Positions 6,820 to 17,948 of a stretch of 64,000 nt of DNA are shown here, one piece after another. Position 1 is the first letter of the stretch. Each line of letters opens with the position of its first letter. The DNA is from Mesorhizobium sp. SARCC-RB16n (GTDB lineage: Bacteria; Pseudomonadota; Alphaproteobacteria; Rhizobiales; Rhizobiaceae), in NCBI RefSeq assembly GCF_008520305.1, contig NZ_ML703277.1:1-64000 (forward strand), given 5' to 3'. The notes beneath the pieces were generated by a model. That model was not told where the DNA came from. It did no database searches and saw only the letters and a list, made by a program, of their open reading frames with translations. The position numbers and the translations under genes were made by a program.

Positions 6820-8021
6820 CAGCCGACCCCTTGGCCTGAGGTGTCGCGTCTGGATAGACGCAACTTGAGGGCATTCCAGCCGTCACCGATGCGGCTGGCC
6901 AGGTTTGTCATCCAGTCCGCCCAGGCAACCGGCAGTTCCATGGTCCGGTTCGACACGATGAACCAGATCGCCACCGCGGAGGCCACGATCGGCACGCCAT
7001 AGACCATATAGGAATATTGCGGGACCTCGTCGGCCTTGCTCGCGGCGAAGAAACCCAGCCAGCGTACGAACAGCGATATCGCGATGGCCGTGATCAGCGG
7101 ATTGACGCGCGCCTCGCGATGCGAACGCGCGTCTCCCGCCACCGCGAGCGCGATCAGCGCAAAAACCATGGAGTACGTCCATTCCGAAAACCGCTGGTCG
7201 ACCTCGGCCCGGTATTCCTGGGGATTTTGCTGGTAATTCTTGTCGTTAGGACTTGGATTGAGCAGGTATTGGGTGGTCTGGTCTTTCGGGAGCAACGTCA
7301 CTTGGTTTGCCGCCGACATGAAAGCCGACATGTCGAAGGCATAGGACGTGAACCGGATGACACTGAGGTCGCCTGTCAGCGTTTTGCGATGGATGACGCC
7401 GTCATTCATCATCAGCACCTTTTCGCCGCCGCGTTCGATGATGCTGCCGGTCTTCGCATAATAGACGAGATTGACGCCTTCTTCGCGCGAATCGGCGACG
7501 AAGATGCCACCCAGCCGGTTGTCGGGAAGCCGCTCGCCAATCTGCAGGAACAGTCCGTCCTCGATCTTGCGGAAGGTGCCTTCCTGGATGATCAGCGACA
7601 AGAGGTCGGCGCGCGACTCCGCCACCAGGGCGCGGTTCTTCTGTCGTGCATAGGGGTCGATGCCGTTGTCCACGGCGAACGAAAAGACGCTGGCGGCCAG
7701 CGCCAGCAGCATGATCGGCCGCACGATGGTCCAGCGCGAGGCACCCGATGCATTGACCACCGCGAGTTCCGAATCCGAATTCATCACGCTCAGTGTCTGC
7801 GCGACCGCCACCACGAGCGCGAAAGGCACGACGATCGGAACGATGGAAGGGAGAATAAGAGACGCGACCTCGAAGAAGGTCAAAGCCGATTGGCCGCTGT
7901 CGGTGACCAGGTTGATCTTAGCCAGCACCTGCGTCGTCCACACGATGGCCAGTGTCCAGACCAGCGCCGCCAGGAAGACCACGAAAGCGCGGCGCATGAT
8001 GTAGCGTTCAACGACCTTCAT
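6819..8021 (-). CDS. lptF: LPS export ABC transporter permease LptF
   Basis: Partner permease of LptG in LPS export. The 400-residue protein begins [13 protein letters not shown], typical of LptF, followed by transmembrane helices, a large periplasmic beta domain (around residues 120-270) and three C-terminal helices ([15 protein letters not shown] and following). It is the first gene of the minus-strand operon. The 360-base gap upstream (8022-8381) separates it from divergent pepA and must hold both promoters. Assignment as LptF rather than LptG rests on its being first in the pair and on the N-terminal sequence. Confidence 0.93.
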
Positions 8022-8285
8022 GAAGGCTTTACTCGATTTTCTCGAACGGCATCATGCCACCACGCTAAGGGTAGCTGTCCGGCGACGCCCGCACAACTGG
8101 CACCGTCGGGCTGCATCAGGCAGGCGATCCGGTCCCCGTCCCACGTCGCGTACCGCAGTAGGCCGGAGTGTCGGCGGCAATGGATAAGAAAGGACGAACA
8201 TCGATGGTTAACAACAGGTTGCGGCTTGAAGCGGGCCGTGCCGCGACGAATCGCCATCGATTCCATGTCTCATATGGGTAGCCAT

Positions 8286-10640: not shown

Positions 10641-11633
10641 ATGCTGTTTAACCATCTCATAGTCCAACTCTGCGTGGCGTTTGGAATGATGCTTCCGGGA
10701 AACGCCTCGCTCGCTCCACTGGCTTTCACCGCGAGCCTCGAGCATGCCAATATCGACCGTATGGAAACCACGGCCCTGCCGCCCCGCCAAGACCTTGCCG
10801 TGCCCCAACCCGCGCCGATCGAATTCGGCGTCTACGATCCGGCCGACGCTTTCAAATCGGCCACCGATTTTCGCATCGAGCATGTTTTTGTCGCCTGGGA
10901 GCCGTTCGATGCCAGCAAGCTGAGGCAGAAGGCGGCCGAAGCTGCCGAACGTGGGCGCGACCTTATGGTCACCGTGGAGCCATGGCCGAAGGCATCGAGG
11001 ATGCGCCGTGGCGGCGACGCGATGCTGCGTGAAATCGCGCAGGCAAAATATGACAGCCAGATCGATCATGTCTGCTCGGAACTGGCAAGGTCGTCCGGCC
11101 GTACCTTGCTGCGCTGGGGGCACGAGATGGAGGTGGTGTCGGACCGTTATCCCTGGGCTTACAAAGACCCCGCCAGCTTCATTGCCGCCTTCCGGCATGT
11201 GGCCGAACGGTGCCGAAAGCTGTCCCCCAACACGCTCATCGTGTGGTCGCCGCGCGGCGATGGAGAGCTGAGGAAATACTATCCTGGTCCCGACTATGTC
11301 GACTATGTCGGCGTATCTCTCTGGGGACTGCAGAAGTGGGACCGCAAGCATGGCGGGCGCGATCGCGCTTTTCGCGAAGTCTTCTGGGAAACGTATCGAA
11401 ATGTGGTCGCCTACGCCAAGCCTGTGATCATCTCCGAACTCGGCATTTCTGGCGACCAGGACTATGTCGATCGCTGGCTAGCCGAGATCATGGACCACGA
11501 CACCAATGGCGCGAAATTCCCGTTGCTGAGGACCATCGTCTATTTCAACGACAAGGAACCTCATTATTGGCCGCAAGGGTTCGGTTCACCGGATTGGCGA
11601 GTCGATCCAACCAAACTGGTGGCGCTGCCCTGA
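10641..11633 (+). CDS. GH26-like beta-glycosidase, probably exported
   Basis: A 330-residue protein resembling glycoside hydrolase family 26 (beta-mannanases, lichenases, xylanases), a (beta/alpha)8 fold. The expected pair of catalytic glutamates can be seen: LLRWGHEME (acid/base, about residue 158) and VIISELGISG (nucleophile, about residue 274); FGVYDP at 63-68 begins the barrel. The N-terminus is hydrophobic (LIVQLCVAFGMML) but a weak signal peptide. It is a paralogue of the gene at 12406-13347, sharing EFGVYDP/DFGAYDP, the RWGHEME/RFAHEME site and VYFNDKE near the C-terminus. The neighbouring GT2 synthase suggests it trims or releases the polymer made there; substrate is unknown. Confidence 0.75.
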   Translation: MLFNHLIVQLCVAFGMMLPGNASLAPLAFTASLEHANIDRMETTALPPRQDLAVPQPAPIEFGVYDPADAFKSATDFRIEHVFVAWEPFDASKLRQKAAEAAERGRDLMVTVEPWPKASRMRRGGDAMLREIAQAKYDSQIDHVCSELARSSGRTLLRWGHEMEVVSDRYPWAYKDPASFIAAFRHVAERCRKLSPNTLIVWSPRGDGELRKYYPGPDYVDYVGVSLWGLQKWDRKHGGRDRAFREVFWETYRNVVAYAKPVIISELGISGDQDYVDRWLAEIMDHDTNGAKFPLLRTIVYFNDKEPHYWPQGFGSPDWRVDPTKLVALP

Positions 11634-11676
11634 CGTGCAGGCGGCCCGGACCCAGGCATCAGCCCGGAAGCGGCTA

Positions 11677-11780
11677 ATGCATGTCGCCCGGAAGTGTCCT
11701 CGGTTCCGGGATAACGACATGCATAAAATCAGAAGCTTACAGCAGGTCGGGCGAATCCTATTCGCCGCGACATGCTGTAG
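11677..11780. repeat. Composite two-hairpin palindromic repeat element
   Basis: The first hairpin (11677-11724) pairs ATGCATGTCG with CGACATGCAT and, inside, CCCGGAA with TTCCGGG. The second (about 11736-11780) pairs GGCGAAT with ATTCGCC around a 3-base loop, with an outer imperfect stem. The element lies between two convergent genes and resembles short palindromic elements dispersed in Rhizobiales intergenic regions. Its core (CCCGGAAGTG...GGTTCCGGG) matches the core of the element at 36283-36325. It could also help to stop transcription from both sides. Confidence 0.75.
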
Positions 11781-11851
11781 CCGCCCGGGGCAAAATCCAA
11801 TCCCTGGACATAGACGCTGTCTGGCAGAGGGCTGATCAGGCAGTCGCCCGC

Positions 11852-12370
11852 TCAGTCCGCGGTCGCTGGCTGGTTCAACGAATCCTTGATTTCCTGCACC
11901 CTCTTGCTGACCCGGTCGCCCGGCTTCAGCATCTTGATCTCCTGGTAGCCCTTGGTGTCGCCGGTCAGAACGTACCAGTCTCCCTTGGCCGTGTTCTTGG
12001 CATAGATCGTGTCGCCAACCCTTCTGTGGGCAAAGCATGAATGGTCCGTGCTGGATTTCTTGGCGCTGGTCCACTTCGCACGGAAGCAGAAGGTCCCGTC
12101 ATCCTTGAGGAACCAGACGCCTTCGCCGTAGGAGGCAGCCGGGCCTGTTCCGCTCCATCCGGCGAATTGCCGCTTTTCCCGCTGGAAATAGCCGGCGCCA
12201 TCCTTCCAGGTCCAGGTCATATTGTTGTAGATCGCCAGCACGTCACCTGCTGTCAGCGGCTTGCCCTGTTCTGCCCGCTTGGCGATCGAACTTACCGTTT
12301 GCGCCGACGCTGCTCCTGTCAGGAGGCAGGCGATTCCGACAGCGCCGACAACCAGTTTGAATGCACGCAT
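11852..12370 (-). CDS. Exported DUF995 family protein
   Basis: A 172-residue protein with a clear signal peptide (MRAFKLVVGAVGIACLLTGAASAQ) and a mature domain that fits DUF995, a family of unknown function found mostly in rhizobia. Recognisable stretches are GDVLAIYNNMTWTWKDGAGYF near residues 41-61, GEGVWFLKDDGTFCF near 84-98 and the Cys of DHSCFAH. The ATG at 12370 is preceded by GGGAG at a good distance; an upstream TTG (12376) is less likely. The stop of the downstream-strand GH26-like gene is 35 bases away on the same strand (12406), so the two minus-strand genes may be co-transcribed. Confidence 0.8.
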   Translation of the reverse strand: MRAFKLVVGAVGIACLLTGAASAQTVSSIAKRAEQGKPLTAGDVLAIYNNMTWTWKDGAGYFQREKRQFAGWSGTGPAASYGEGVWFLKDDGTFCFRAKWTSAKKSSTDHSCFAHRRVGDTIYAKNTAKGDWYVLTGDTKGYQEIKMLKPGDRVSKRVQEIKDSLNQPATAD

Positions 12371-12405
12371 AGCCAACTCCCTTTCTGCTTTTGCCCTCTA
12401 GGCAA

Positions 12406-13347
12406 TCAGTTGATGATGTTCTGCTTTATCCGCCAGTCAGGCAGGCCGTAATGCTCTGGCCAAGGATAGACTTCCTTGTCGTTGAAATAGACGACCGCCG
12501 TGAGTTTGGGGAACGCAGGCAAGGGCTGACGTACCTCCGCATCCCACGCCGCGACATAATCCTTGCTGCCGGAATAGCCGAGTTCCGCGACGACAATCGG
12601 TCTGTTGAACTGGAGAACCCGGTCGTAGCCCGGCTTCAACAGCTCGGAGAAAGTCCGGTCGCGGCCATATTTATCCCTGTCGAATTTCTGCAGGCCGAAG
12701 ACCGACAGGCCGATCACGTCGACATAGTTATCGCCAGGATAGTAGGCGGCCAGGCCGTCATCGCCCTTTGGCGACCACATGAACGTGGCGTGAGGGGCCT
12801 GTGTCCGGCACCGGTCAACGACATGTCTGTAGGCCTTGATGTAATCCGCCGGATCCCAGTTCGCCCAGGAGAATCGGCCCGTCTTGTCTTCCATCTCGTG
12901 CGCAAAACGTATGGTGACGGCCGTCTTCATTCCTCCGGCGATCCTGCAGATGGCATCGAGGTTCGGATCGTATTTGCCGGACAGGATGCCGTCCCTGAGT
13001 TCGTTTGGCGTGACGCGCCATTGCTGTGACCAGGTCCATGGCTCGATCGTGATCAGGATGGTCCGTCCTCTTGCGGCCGCATAGGTATCGGCCGCGGGCA
13101 GACTTGCTAGGTCGACATCTTCCCATGGCAGAAACAGATGCTCGATCTTGACCGTCTTGTCGTTGCTGAATGCGCCATACGGGTCGTACGCGCCAAAGTC
13201 AGGAGCCGAGCCCTGCGGCGTGGCCTTTTGCGATAGGTCGGTCGACGCGCCAAGCGACGGGGTCGCAGGCATGGTAACGCTGGCGGCCAATCCCATCGCG
13301 ACAAGGAGCGCGAAGCTTCTCGGGTAAGATTTCATCGTCCGTTTCAT
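12406..13347 (-). CDS. GH26-like beta-glycosidase, exported
   Basis: A 313-residue paralogue of the enzyme at 10641-11633. A signal peptide is evident (SFALLVAMGLAASVTMPATPSLGAS). The putative catalytic glutamates lie in IRFAHEMED (acid/base) and VVAELGYSG (nucleophile), and the VYFNDKE and PDWR motifs near the C-terminus are shared with the paralogue. ATG at 13347 has an AGGGAG Shine-Dalgarno seven bases upstream; the GTG just before it (13350) is not needed. It lies 147 bases downstream of the GT2 synthase on the same strand. A role in trimming, releasing or remodelling the GT2 product is inferred, by analogy with cellulase BcsZ beside cellulose synthase. Confidence 0.78.
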   Translation of the reverse strand: MKRTMKSYPRSFALLVAMGLAASVTMPATPSLGASTDLSQKATPQGSAPDFGAYDPYGAFSNDKTVKIEHLFLPWEDVDLASLPAADTYAAARGRTILITIEPWTWSQQWRVTPNELRDGILSGKYDPNLDAICRIAGGMKTAVTIRFAHEMEDKTGRFSWANWDPADYIKAYRHVVDRCRTQAPHATFMWSPKGDDGLAAYYPGDNYVDVIGLSVFGLQKFDRDKYGRDRTFSELLKPGYDRVLQFNRPIVVAELGYSGSKDYVAAWDAEVRQPLPAFPKLTAVVYFNDKEVYPWPEHYGLPDWRIKQNIIN

Positions 13348-13494
13348 CACATTACTCCCTGGCTGTGTTGAGCATCATCGGGTTTTCCGAAGATCAGTTC
13401 GGCGTCAGTGCCTCCCTCACGGGCTTGGTTTGCATTCCATCCATGCGGCCGCGTGGCCGCCGACATATCCTTGCTGATCAGACGATGGTTATCG

Positions 13495-15381
13495 TCATGG
13501 CTGGTTTCCTTTCTTCCCGGCGGTCGCGGCCTGGCTGTCCCACCAGACCTCGAAACGCAGCTTCCCGGCTTTCACGGCTGTCAGGCCTGCTCCGGACGGG
13601 CCGTAGGTGAGGCGCGTCAGTTTTAGAGGCTCGGCGCCTGCCGCCATTGTGTCCAAGCCTTCGAGGCCGTGGGACGACAATGAAACCGCCGAGATCGTCG
13701 AGACCGCGCCCGCGAACGCGCTCTGCCTGATGAGGCCGACATTCGGCTTGATCGAGTTTTCATAGGCATGCCTGAGGATGATGACGACCAGGATCAGCGC
13801 ATACACGACGGCGTTGAATATGGCGAAGAAGTAGAAGCCGCGCCCGGCCGTGGCGTCCTCGACAAAGATCGCCGGCAGCGCAGAGGTGATGGACAGAACT
13901 GCGTATGGAGCGATGACCCGGAAGGGTAGGACATCCGCTGGCCCGCCGCCCTTCGGCGTCACGCGAAAATCGACGAACGTTCCGGTAGCCCAATCGCGAA
14001 AGGCCGCCAGTATGCCAGCCAGCGCCCACGGCCACCTGGCGAACGGAAACAGGATACCTTCCCAGCTGAAGACCTTGGCATTCTTTGGCCGCCACCAGCC
14101 ATTGGCGCGAAACAAGGTGTTTATCGATGTGAGAATGATCGTCGATGGCAGGAGATGCTTGAAGAATTGTGGAAAATCCGTTCCGACGAAGTTCATGTCG
14201 AACAGAAGGGCGACAATGGGAATCGAAAACGAAATAACCATCGTTGCGCAGAACAATCCGTACCAAAGCTGGCAGAAGAGGAATTGAAACCGCAGCTTTA
14301 AGGGCAGTTTTTCGATGTAGGCGGGGGTATATTTGATAAGAAGCGTCATGATGCTTCGCGACCATTGGAATTCTTGCGTCGCGAGGTCGGCGAATGTCTG
14401 CGGACCGTCACCATTGGCAATCGCATCGATGGCGTGGGCGCCCCGCCAACCCTTTGCATTCATCATCAGGGTTGTGGAGTGGTCCTCTGCAAGCTCGGGA
14501 CCCAGGCCGCCAATGTCCTTCAGCGCGGCGGTCCGAACGGCGTAGTGCGAACCGAAGCAGATCGGCGCCCAGCCGCCATTGTAACCGGCCTGTAGAGCGC
14601 CATGCAGTATGCCTTCCGCATAAAGCCTGCTTCTGGCCGACCAACTGTTCCCTGCGTTCCTGTCACAGATGCTTGGCGCCGAGACATAACCAACTCGTGG
14701 GTCGCAGAAGGGCGCCAGCATGTGCCTGAGATAGGATGGCGAGGGGACGTGATCGGCATCCAACTGGGCAACGAAGTCGTACCGGTCGTAGCCGTAATTG
14801 TCATAGAAGAAGGCGAGGTTCCCCTCCTTGCACCGGGTTCTGCGCGGCCATTGCGGCCGGTGATAGTCGTCGCGTCCCTTTCGTGTCGAAACAAAAACGG
14901 AATGCGCGCGGCACCAAGCCAGCGTCTCCTCGGACGGATCCTCGTCCGCCAGCCAAGTGTCGTGTCGCAGATCCTGGCGGCGCATTGCCGTGAGCGTTTC
15001 GGCAATGATCGAGAATGGCTCCGACGGCGCTTTGGTGACGACCATCGCCACGCGACAGGAGGGTGAAAGGCCTATCCCGGACGCTGGAACCCTCGAGCGC
15101 AGAAATATCGTCAGTGTGTAAAGCGGCATGGCCATTGTCAGTGCCACCAGCACTGACACCATCACGAAACGCCCGGTTCCGACGTCATGCGCCGGATCAA
15201 GCCACCACGACCAGAAATAGCACAATGAGGCAAGCCAGATCAGATAGGCCGACACGTACGCGGCCTTCTGCGGCCTGGTCATCAAGGAGACCAGAAACGA
15301 ATTGCGCTCGTCGGCGCGATGCGAAACTGCATCGATAGCTCTGCCGGAAGTCCAATGTGATGGCGCGAAACTGGTTCTCAT
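13495..15381 (-). CDS. Membrane family-2 glycosyltransferase (polysaccharide synthase)
   Basis: A processive-type GT2 of 628 residues, inner-membrane, resembling the cellulose/mixed-linkage glucan/curdlan synthase group. Two membrane helices (about 41-60 and 73-95) precede the catalytic domain with AQLDADH (DxD, 206-211) and the PELAEDH acid motif (296-301). The usual QxxRW reads QEFQW at 336-340, with Gln replacing Arg. At least four further helices follow. There is no obvious PilZ domain; the last 90 residues after the final helix form a beta-rich tail. The open frame runs on through galE, but ATG at 15381 overlaps the galE stop as ATGA. The polymer made is unknown. Confidence 0.85.
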   Translation of the reverse strand: MRTSFAPSHWTSGRAIDAVSHRADERNSFLVSLMTRPQKAAYVSAYLIWLASLCYFWSWWLDPAHDVGTGRFVMVSVLVALTMAMPLYTLTIFLRSRVPASGIGLSPSCRVAMVVTKAPSEPFSIIAETLTAMRRQDLRHDTWLADEDPSEETLAWCRAHSVFVSTRKGRDDYHRPQWPRRTRCKEGNLAFFYDNYGYDRYDFVAQLDADHVPSPSYLRHMLAPFCDPRVGYVSAPSICDRNAGNSWSARSRLYAEGILHGALQAGYNGGWAPICFGSHYAVRTAALKDIGGLGPELAEDHSTTLMMNAKGWRGAHAIDAIANGDGPQTFADLATQEFQWSRSIMTLLIKYTPAYIEKLPLKLRFQFLFCQLWYGLFCATMVISFSIPIVALLFDMNFVGTDFPQFFKHLLPSTIILTSINTLFRANGWWRPKNAKVFSWEGILFPFARWPWALAGILAAFRDWATGTFVDFRVTPKGGGPADVLPFRVIAPYAVLSITSALPAIFVEDATAGRGFYFFAIFNAVVYALILVVIILRHAYENSIKPNVGLIRQSAFAGAVSTISAVSLSSHGLEGLDTMAAGAEPLKLTRLTYGPSGAGLTAVKAGKLRFEVWWDSQAATAGKKGNQP

Positions 15382-16364
15382 CGCGTCGCCTCGAGGCCAA
15401 AGAACGGGGCCGCTGTCCTGACGATGGTGTCGATGTCGGAAAACTCGGGCACGAAGCCCAGATGCTCGCGTGCATTGACCGGATCGGCATAGAGCGCGGC
15501 CGGGTCCCCGAGGCGCCGGGTTCTGTAGACAGCCGGGACCGATCGCGACGTCATCCGGCTGACTGCCTGCAAAATCTCCTTGATCGACACGCCTCGCCCT
15601 GTCCCGAGATTGACCGACAGGCTTTCGCCGCCGGCTTCCACGTGCAAGAGCGCCTTCAGATGCGCGCGGGCGAGGTCGCTGACATGGATATAGTCGCGCA
15701 CGCAGGTGCCATCCGAGGTGTCGTAGTCGGTGCCGAAGACCTCGATCTCGTCGATCAACCCGGAGGCGGCCATCAGGACCCTGGGAACCAGGTGCGTTTC
15801 TGGCGAATGCCATTCCCCCAGTTCCCCGTCGGGATCGGCGCCGCAGGCGTTGAAATAGCGCAGGATGGCGTATTTCACCCCATAGGCGGCCGAATAGTCG
15901 CCGATGATCTGCTCGCCCATCAGTTTGCTGCGCCCATAGGGGCTGATCGGATTCTGCGACGAACTCTCGCGCACCGGCAGCACCTCCGGCACGCCGTAGG
16001 TCGCGCAACTGCTGGAGAAGATGATGTTGCCGATTGCTGCGGCGCGCGCCGCATCGAGCACCGCGATGGTTCCGGCCACATTGGTCGAATAGTGCTCGGC
16101 CGGTTGGTGGACAGACTCTCCAACATAGGCCAGGGCCGCGAAATGGATGATCGCCTTCGGCTGGTATTTGCCGATCGTCTGCTCCAGCGCGCGTTTGTCC
16201 CGGATATCGCCGACGACGAGCGGACCCCAGCCGACGGATTTCTCGTTCCCGCGGCTGAGATCATCATAAACCACGGGGAGGTAGCCGGCTGCCGCCAAGA
16301 GCTTGCAGGTGTGGCTGCCGATGAAGCCGGCGCCGCCTGTCACGAGTATGACGGGCCGTGTCAT
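15378..16364 (-). CDS. galE: UDP-glucose 4-epimerase
   Basis: Interconverts UDP-glucose and UDP-galactose (or related sugars) in the cytoplasm. The 328-residue extended SDR has the NAD-binding GGAGFIGSH at 8-16, SSSCATYG near 122-129 and the YGRSK catalytic Tyr/Lys motif near 148-152. The C-terminal [15 protein letters not shown] block is typical of GalE. It overlaps the GT2 gene downstream by ATGA (15378-15381), and its own ATG (16364) overlaps the ancestral stop of the UXS-like gene, also as ATGA. It therefore most likely supplies a nucleotide sugar for the polymer. Confidence 0.93.
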
Positions 16365-17391
16365 GACACGGCGGCCTCTTTAACAGGCCGGTTGCTGTAG
16401 AGCAGGGCGTCGAAATACTCCATAGGGCAAGACCCTGGCTCAGGTTGATCGTCGGTTCCCAGCCGAGATGTTGCCTGGCAAAGGAGATATCGGGTCTGCG
16501 TTGCCTGGGGTCGTCGACGGGCAGTGGCCGGTGCACAATCCGCGACCGGGAGTTCGTATAATCGACGACCAGCTTGGCCAGATCCATGACGGTGAATTCA
16601 GCGGGATTGCCGAGATTGACCGGATGCGGCGGTGGCGTCGGGGCTCTCATCAGGCTGACAAAGCCCTCGATCAGGTCGTCCACGTAGCAGAACGATCGTG
16701 TCTGCATGCCGCTGCCATAAACGGTCAGGTCCTCGCCACGCAGCGCCTGGACGACGAAGTTCGACACCACGCGGCCGTCGTCGGGCTGCATGCGACGGCC
16801 ATAGGTGTTGAATATCCGCGCAACGCGGACATCGATGCCGAACGTTCGCGAATAGTCGAAGAACAGGGTTTCGGCCGAACGTTTACCCTCGTCGTAGCAG
16901 GATCGTGGGCCGTGCGTGTTGACGTTGCCGAGATAGCTCTCCGGCTGAGGATGGACCAGCGGGTCGCCATAGACCTCCGAAGTGGAGGCCTGGAAGATCT
17001 TGGCATTGTGGCGCCGCGCGAGTTCCAGAAGGTTCAGCGAGCCGTGTACGCTGGTCTTGAACGTGTGGATCGGATCGGCCTGATAATGCGGCGGAGAGGC
17101 GGGGCAGGCGAGATTGTAGATTTCATCGACGGGAATGTCCCCAGGTAGCGCGTCGACAATGTCATGCTCGATGCATCTGAATGCCGGATCGCTCAATATG
17201 GCATTGAGATTGTATCTCTTGCCGGTATGGAAATTGTCGAGCGCGACGACTTCATATCCGTCCGCCAGCAACCGTTCGCATAGATGCGAGCCTAGAAATC
17301 CTGCTCCCCCCGCGACCAGGGCGCGACTTTGGCGCGTGCCTTTGCGGCTGATCCCATCCCGGAGTTTCAAAACCTTGATGATTTTACTCAT
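16264..17391 (-). CDS. UDP-glucuronate decarboxylase (UDP-xylose synthase)-like NAD-dependent epimerase, 3' frameshift
   Basis: Extended SDR that should convert UDP-glucuronate to UDP-xylose. It has GGAGFLGSH at 28-36, the YxxxK site at 166-170 (YDEGK), [11 protein letters not shown] near 191-201 and [16 protein letters not shown] near 298-313, as in UXS enzymes. After residue 322 the open frame (375 residues) runs out of family and 101 bases into galE. In another frame the expected tail is present (MEYFDALL.. to EAAVS, 16364-16423) and stops at 16361 in an ATGA overlap with galE. So one base (or four, judging by family spacing) was lost near 16424. The start at 17391 follows AAGGGGAAG. The catalytic part is intact. 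Confidence 0.85.
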
Positions 17392-17948
17392 GGTCTTCCC
17401 CTTACGCACGGCGCACACCATCGACCGGGCAGGACAAAGCACCGCCCGGCCACGTTCTTTCGAACGTGACAAAACCCTCCGCTCGCGCGGAATCGCCATC
17501 TCTGATGTGCGCTACTTGCTCTTTGAGTTCACAGGATCGATGCGGCGCGGCTTATTGCCGCCGCCCAGCTTCCAGATGCCCCGAATTTTCGTGACTACAC
17601 ACTTGGTGCCACCATCGCCCATTGCCTGCGCAAATTGCACATCCCAACGGGTCAAAAATAAACCTGTGGACATTCTAGTCAACTAAATTAGCTATCCATT
17701 AACTACAATCGTTCGTGAGTGGTTAATTACGATACTGGAATCTTGGTCCCGCGCGTCAAACCATCTGATCGGCGATCCGGTCTTGGAGGGAAATAAAAGC
17801 AGAATATATCGGATGGCGCAGCGCATAGAACATCAGCTATATCGGTGTGAACGAAACTGAGATATAGGTAAAATATAAATCGCGGCGTATACCTATTAGG
17901 CAGAAGAAAACGCGGAAATTTTATAGCGTAACTGCTTAGACGTCGCCG
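17392..17948. promoter_or_regulatory. AT-rich non-coding region upstream of the polysaccharide operon
   Basis: These 557 bases hold no convincing gene on either strand. From about 17650 to 17935 the DNA is markedly AT-rich compared with the rest of the window. It contains an imperfect inverted repeat, ATTAACTAC (17698-17706) and GTGGTTAAT (17719-17727), and many TA steps. The promoter of the UXS-galE-GT2 operon should lie here. AT-rich, T-A-step-rich targets are typical of MucR/Ros regulators, one of which is encoded at 37598; that link is only an inference. Confidence 0.45.

Follow-up and report, generated by a model that had tools for sequence, protein, structure and literature searches.

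The locus considered here raises the question of what polymer is made by a membrane-bound GT2 synthase encoded among nucleotide-sugar genes, and why this synthase is accompanied by two GH26-like glycosidases. The window (the whole stretch of 64,000 nucleotides that was analyzed) had previously been interpreted in a sequence-only reading as harboring a gene combination that it did not recognize. The present analysis leads us to conclude, with high confidence, that the locus is a synthase-dependent polysaccharide operon of the APS type, from a Mesorhizobium that is close to M. comanense. The combination is that of the aps operon of S. meliloti, as seen in annotated neighborhoods and in the accessible part of PMC7902896, which supersedes the earlier impression; as regards novelty, the EPS cluster is already known and its product assigned, and it is present here in a variant form. 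The identification is based on gene content, homology, catalytic residues, co-occurrence, single ORFs joining synthase and hydrolase, and purifying selection, all of which are observed here.

Composition of the locus

The minus strand carries, from 17391 down to 11852, the uxs, galE-like, membrane GT2, GH26-B, and DUF995 genes, and GH26-A lies on the plus strand, convergent to this operon (Table 1). The gene names in the window are backed by Pfam and NCBIfam, except for GH26-A, which falls below the Pfam cutoff. Profile and structure-sequence matches confirm the polysaccharide locus with membrane GT2, galE-like, UXS, and DUF995 proteins that had been proposed from the letters alone, as well as the two GH26-like proteins on opposite strands, which share 40% identity. 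The neighbors scanned all belong to ordinary families: HolC on one flank of the locus, and a CMD protein, TetR, and RlmJ on the opposite flank. The hydrophobic N-termini of GH26-A, GH26-B, and the DUF995 protein would be compatible with export, and a low-confidence structural model of the latter, which resembles small calycin-like beta barrels, weakly suggests that it may be a small beta barrel.

Table 1. Features of the aps-type locus and their positions in the window.
Feature	Positions	Strand	Assignment and remarks
GH26-A	10641..11633	+	extra, putatively exported GH26-like glycosidase; E162 and E266 conserved; hydrophobic N-terminus
DUF995 protein	11852..12370	-	apsH2 position, final operon gene; E 1.1e-35; hydrophobic N-terminus
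GH26-B (ApsE counterpart)	12406..13350	-	putatively exported GH26-like glycosidase; passes Pfam cutoff
UDP-glucose dehydrogenase scar	~13351..13498	-	initial codons and the final ~100 bases remain
ApsS counterpart	13495..15381	-	membrane GT2, processive-synthase-like
Uxe counterpart	15378..16364	-	galE-like UDP-sugar 4-epimerase; TIGR01179 388.6 bits, cutoff 262.3
Uxs	16264..17391	-	UDP-glucuronate decarboxylase (UDP-xylose synthase); ATG at 17391; frameshifted
Upstream intergenic region	17392..17948	-	one weak sigma-70-like match, 17682-17655; CuxR gene not found

The S. meliloti operon reads uxs1-uxe-apsS-apsH1-apsE-apsH2, and its product is an arabinose-containing polymer, according to the accessible part of PMC7902896. 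The available portions of further papers describe APS as activated by CuxR (PMC9495663, PMC8546604), as one of the biofilm EPS (PMC9993111), and as c-di-GMP-activated and linked to aggregation and biofilm (PMC9495663). In the pSymB record CP140934, an AraC gene is divergent from uxs, galE, GT2, DUF995, GH26, and DUF995 genes, in this order, from which it follows that apsE is the GH26 gene and that apsH1 and apsH2 are DUF995 genes. The window proteins are 58% (ApsS), 67% (Uxs), and 61% (epimerase) identical to those of pSymB. The uxs-uxe(galE)-apsS order and direction are present in the window, with GH26 (apsE) and DUF995 (apsH2) downstream of apsS; a DUF995 gene between ApsS and GH26-B, corresponding to apsH1, is absent in the window. 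In the original reports (PNAS 2017 and J Bacteriol 2019), Uxe reportedly acts as both UDP-xylose and UDP-glucose 4-epimerase, and APS is said to consist mainly of arabinose.

The closest named relative, M. comanense (L001), has the same gene order plus one gene. Three aps blocks show 82-87% nucleotide identity between the two, and the dN/dS values of the six remaining genes are 0.06-0.12 (0.115 for uxs, over its first 350 codons), which indicates purifying selection as an average over the whole divergence. The gene order kept at this identity, together with the low dN/dS, argues that the locus is more than a chance assembly. The additional gene encodes an intact UDP-glucose dehydrogenase, overlapping the apsS end and the GH26-B start; at this position the window retains only a scar, which the sequence-only reading had missed. 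In locus L051 (genome G044), a 48-residue UDP-glucose dehydrogenase match at 7885-8028 is all that occupies the usual place, and the gene may, judging from this remnant, have been lost there as well.

The uxs gene of the window is frameshifted near 16418-16425, in a segment that is shorter by four bases than its M. comanense equivalent. Its last ~20 residues are replaced by an out-of-frame tail overlapping galE, and the ORF as read runs past the galE start to 16264, such that the uxs/galE junction is disturbed. In nine relatives with readable ends (L001, L007, L010, L054, L082-L085, and L087), uxs is open to its normal end. Of the ATGA couplings proposed earlier, the GT2/galE overlap is real, while the uxs/galE ATGA stands in a reading frame no longer followed by the main uxs ORF at that point.

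The synthase and the GH26-like enzymes

ApsS, ~58% identical to the S. meliloti pSymB copies, matches the cellulose synthase catalytic region and aligns with BcsA across regions that we take to be the DxD, ED, and QxxRW motifs, the R of the last being Q in ApsS. The Pfam scan gave no PilZ match in ApsS, and the score against TIGR03030 (CelA equivalog) is 64 bits, below the cutoff of 699.1.

GH26-B scores 32.9 bits against PF02156 (gathering cutoff 20.2), and GH26-A 17.2 bits. The latter nevertheless matches a solved GH26 lichenase at 2.1e-11 (phmmer), and a nine-row GH26 profile recovers both this lichenase and a beta-1,3-xylanase, the closest solved structure to GH26-A and GH26-B being the lichenase Endoglucanase H (8.6e-21 with the profile). 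The catalytic glutamates, whose absence the earlier reading had named as the point of concern, are both present in all 51 rows of the sequence alignment, as is the preceding Arg; their assignment as acid/base and nucleophile follows known GH26 enzymology. The residue preceding the acid/base Glu is His in 19 rows and Gln in 32.

The two proteins had been regarded as diverged paralogues. Divergence is indeed seen, but the tree (45 rows, with the G991 and G1102 sequences outside it) shows two separate lineages meeting at the locus and no recent pair. The 37 ApsE rows form a group apart from GH26-A (support 100/100), and GH26-A clusters with the convergent GH26s of M. comanense, L002, G087, and G046 (89/80; 90% of bootstrap trees). 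GH26-A is thus no recent copy but a member of a separate, moderately supported group, a second lineage that is joined to the aps-type operon in some strains. GH26-B, by comparison, is 93% identical to its M. comanense counterpart and ~50-56% identical to plasmid GH26 genes among the matches listed (40 rows). In the window and in L001, L002, L047, L090, L097, and L100, a gene of the GH26-A type follows the aps operon immediately, in convergent orientation; for the convergent genes of G991 (two in tandem) and G1102 (with no other GH26 in the examined stretch), the assignment to this type is by best match only. The tandem pair of G991 spans 8033-10032 of L097, and five GH26 matches were found in that genome in total.

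The linkage to the synthase was surveyed in 146 Mesorhizobium genomes with E limits of 1e-60 (ApsS) and 1e-30 (GH26). ApsS was detected in 69 genomes, at 70 loci, and GH26 in exactly these 69, at 73 loci, with neither in the other 77; since the genomes are related, a hypergeometric statistic on this co-occurrence overstates independence. For 72 of the 73 GH26 loci, ApsS is no more than 5 kb away on the same contig; in the remaining case (G022), GH26 is on another contig. In a sample of 398 genomes from across the phylum, 13 also have ApsS-type synthases.

A selection of 44 loci was examined more fully, comprising the window, 37 loci reached via ApsS, and six reached via GH26 (L009, L010, L097, L100, L102, and L103). 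It covers 22 of the other 69 Mesorhizobium ApsS loci, eight of the 13 phylum-sample genomes (the remaining five being G004, i.e., L004, and four Mesorhizobium), and four of the 22 genomes of a further set. The window and all 37 ApsS-reached loci contain GH26, and all six GH26-reached loci contain ApsS. A DUF995 gene of any kind is present in 32 of the 44, so that apsH1, in which the relatives vary, is not defining. Outside the 44, GH26 genes stand without ApsS in the examined stretches L098 and L099 (G991) and L101 (G1102, a 3.2 kb contig), which shows that such GH26 enzymes are not confined to the synthase and argues against a strict link.

In three betaproteobacteria, GT2 and GH26 form one ORF, of 918 residues in Neisseriaceae bacterium JH1-16 (L003), 909 in Herminiimonas fonticola (L004), and 925 in Crenobacter oryzisoli (L005). 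The fused ORF stands after uxs, galE, and UDP-glucose dehydrogenase genes in each case. Pfam detects GH26 only in the L004 fusion, but all three align with GH26-A and GH26-B over the domain, including both Glu residues. The fusion is rare and known here from two families, Neisseriaceae and Oxalobacteraceae: in the phylum sample it is present only in the genome of L004, which is also the only genome with a match at E 1e-60 among 399 of its order. Together with the shared 69 genomes, the single ORFs tie GH26 to the synthase, which supports the cellulose-like logic suggested earlier, i.e., a GT2 synthase paired with an exported GH26. The neighborhood, for which the sequence-only reading had proposed a search of other genomes, is moreover kept in order in M. 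comanense and S. meliloti pSymB. Neither a regular GH26 partnership across genomes nor GT2-GH26 single ORFs were found in the accessible parts of the literature searched.

Precursors, product, and alternative explanations

Uxs matches structures of UDP-glucuronate decarboxylase 1 (E 2.5e-103), and the galE-like epimerase shares 61% identity with its counterpart in the S. meliloti aps operon, against 53% with the next epimerase of pSymB. The uxs and galE genes are each found in 42 of the 44 loci; uxs is missing from L047 (where the upstream stretch holds just part of galE) and from L053, which lies at a contig end, and galE from L053 and L089. UDP-glucose dehydrogenase is present in 20 loci (one as a fragment), including M. 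comanense and the three betaproteobacteria, where a single place thus encodes the route from UDP-Glc via UDP-GlcA and UDP-Xyl to UDP-Ara. The likely pentose is arabinose, with xylose as intermediate, which modifies the galactose- or xylose-containing polymer envisaged earlier. The aps-like cluster of L089 (G842) contains uxs, ApsS, and GH26, no galE-like gene being found in the examined stretch; by its gene content it is possibly a xylose-only version, so arabinose need not be general.

The loci L053-L061 (Mesorhizobium) display a second arrangement, with GH26 and DUF995 divergent from ApsS and, except in L053, a nearby uxs-galE unit. Their uxs/galE are 76-86% identical to those of the window and their ApsS only 53-54%, which indicates that operon parts may have been exchanged.

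We infer the following sequence of events, in which the arabinose product is carried over from the S. meliloti literature by analogy. Uxs would convert UDP-glucuronate to UDP-xylose, from which the galE-like epimerase would form UDP-L-arabinose, possibly serving UDP-Gal too. ApsS would polymerize the pentose and extrude the growing polymer across the inner membrane. On the periplasmic side, the emerging chain would be cut by GH26-B (ApsE) and GH26-A for trimming, release, or clearance, in analogy to BcsZ acting on cellulose, while the DUF995 protein would be a small secreted accessory. An inverting transfer from UDP-beta-L-arabinopyranose would create an alpha-L-arabinopyranosyl bond in equatorial position, similar in shape to the beta-D bonds cleaved by GH26 enzymes. 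We tentatively propose, as a possible rather than an established reading, that the self-made chain is of the L-arabinopyranan type (or beta-xylan-like) and that window-type GH26s are dedicated endo-hydrolases at the synthase exit, forming a distinct functional kind. If true, the GH26 family would gain a new specificity, which in some bacteria is fused to the synthase and which in the window is represented twice, through a second old lineage.

Control by c-di-GMP is likewise carried over by analogy. CuxR gives no match above 50 bits in the window, and no ortholog was found in the draft genome of M. comanense (best candidate 30%, all 55 scored). An adjacent CuxR, which is not defining for the operon type, is found in 18 of the 44 loci; counted among these are L006 with a fragment, L010 with a gene truncated at the end of the locus, and L100, where the AraC match is weak and partial. 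At E 1e-45, with 13 candidates scored per genome, a CuxR-like gene is present in 62 of the 146 Mesorhizobium genomes, 34 with ApsS and 28 without, and is absent from 35 ApsS genomes. GGDEF genes or matches lie close to four of the 44 aps clusters (L010, 9139-10140; L047, 13528-14001; L003, 14204-14791; L056, 4408-4950) and would fit c-di-GMP control. A further aps operon (L006) is located on the S. meliloti SM11 plasmid pSmeSM11b, an accessory plasmid typed conjugative, with only a 38-residue cuxR fragment and flanked at either end by transposase genes (ISRm32-like, Tn3 family); from this setting, the aps operon appears mobile.

We have also considered a different product, either a beta-glucan (mixed-linkage or other) or a polymer that contains galactose, with uxs and galE serving other glycans. 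Such a product would suit the lichenase as nearest solved structure, the match of ApsS to the cellulose synthase catalytic region, and L054-L061, where uxs-galE is a separate unit uncoupled from ApsS. It is nevertheless very unlikely, in view of the recurrence of both genes in nearly all of the 44 loci, in one directon in the window, S. meliloti, and many others, of the CelA score far from its cutoff, and of the arabinose in the S. meliloti product (accessible part of PMC7902896). An unlikely alternative of another kind is that GH26-A is a separate enzyme scavenging plant or foreign pentosans, here by accident. Its own transcription unit on the opposite strand, the matches of at least 45% in only three of the 146 Mesorhizobium genomes, and the relatives in G991 and G1102 stretches without ApsS speak for it, but the convergent position right behind the aps operon, shared by the window with six relatives, and L100, where the GH26-A type is the sole GH26 in the examined stretch, speak for a partner of the synthase.

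The scar and the uxs frameshift, in genes that are both intact in M. comanense, indicate that the operon may be decaying, and it is conceivable, if somewhat unlikely, that precursor supply in the window strain is broken and the polymer is not made. UDP-glucuronate must come from elsewhere in this strain, and Uxs may be impaired, such that output may be low or nil. The purifying selection on six genes, averaged over the divergence from M. comanense, argues against a remnant, and the uxs change lies behind the part aligned to the solved decarboxylase (residues 57-357). Moreover, another dehydrogenase-like gene is present elsewhere in M. comanense (42%, the match being interrupted by one stop codon), and in the S. 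meliloti loci UDP-glucose dehydrogenase was not found beside the operon.

For the APS-type operon, the main implication is that GH26 is, in the loci examined, a regular neighbor of the ApsS-type synthase and, in three bacteria, one protein with it. The substrate and role of the hydrolase are directly testable in S. meliloti, and clusters for arabinose polymers gain a recognizable gene signature.

Comparison with known systems

The window shares with S. meliloti aps the uxs, uxe, GT2, GH26, and terminal DUF995 genes in order and orientation, and differs from it by the missing apsH1, CuxR not found, the extra convergent GH26-A, the dehydrogenase scar, and the frameshifted uxs.

The cellulose-system hydrolase BcsZ, of family GH8, trims, releases, or clears the emerging chain, and the BcsA/BcsZ pair resembles, by analogy, the GT2 synthase with a putative periplasmic hydrolase described here. 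The hydrolase of the window is GH26 instead, and ApsS differs from BcsA by the lack of a PilZ match, the Q for R in QxxRW, and the missed CelA cutoff. With the GH26 lichenase (Endoglucanase H) and beta-1,3-xylanases, the window enzymes have the family and the catalytic Glu pair in common; they are, however, distant from these, GH26-A even falling under the Pfam cutoff, and linked to a synthase, and, unlike lichenase and xylanases, they likely act on the polymer of their own operon. The single ORFs of L003-L005, finally, recall the NdvB-type glucan synthases, which are GT2-GH17 fusions. In both, a glycosidase-like domain is joined to GT2, with GH26 taking the place of GH17 in L003-L005 and with different sugars.
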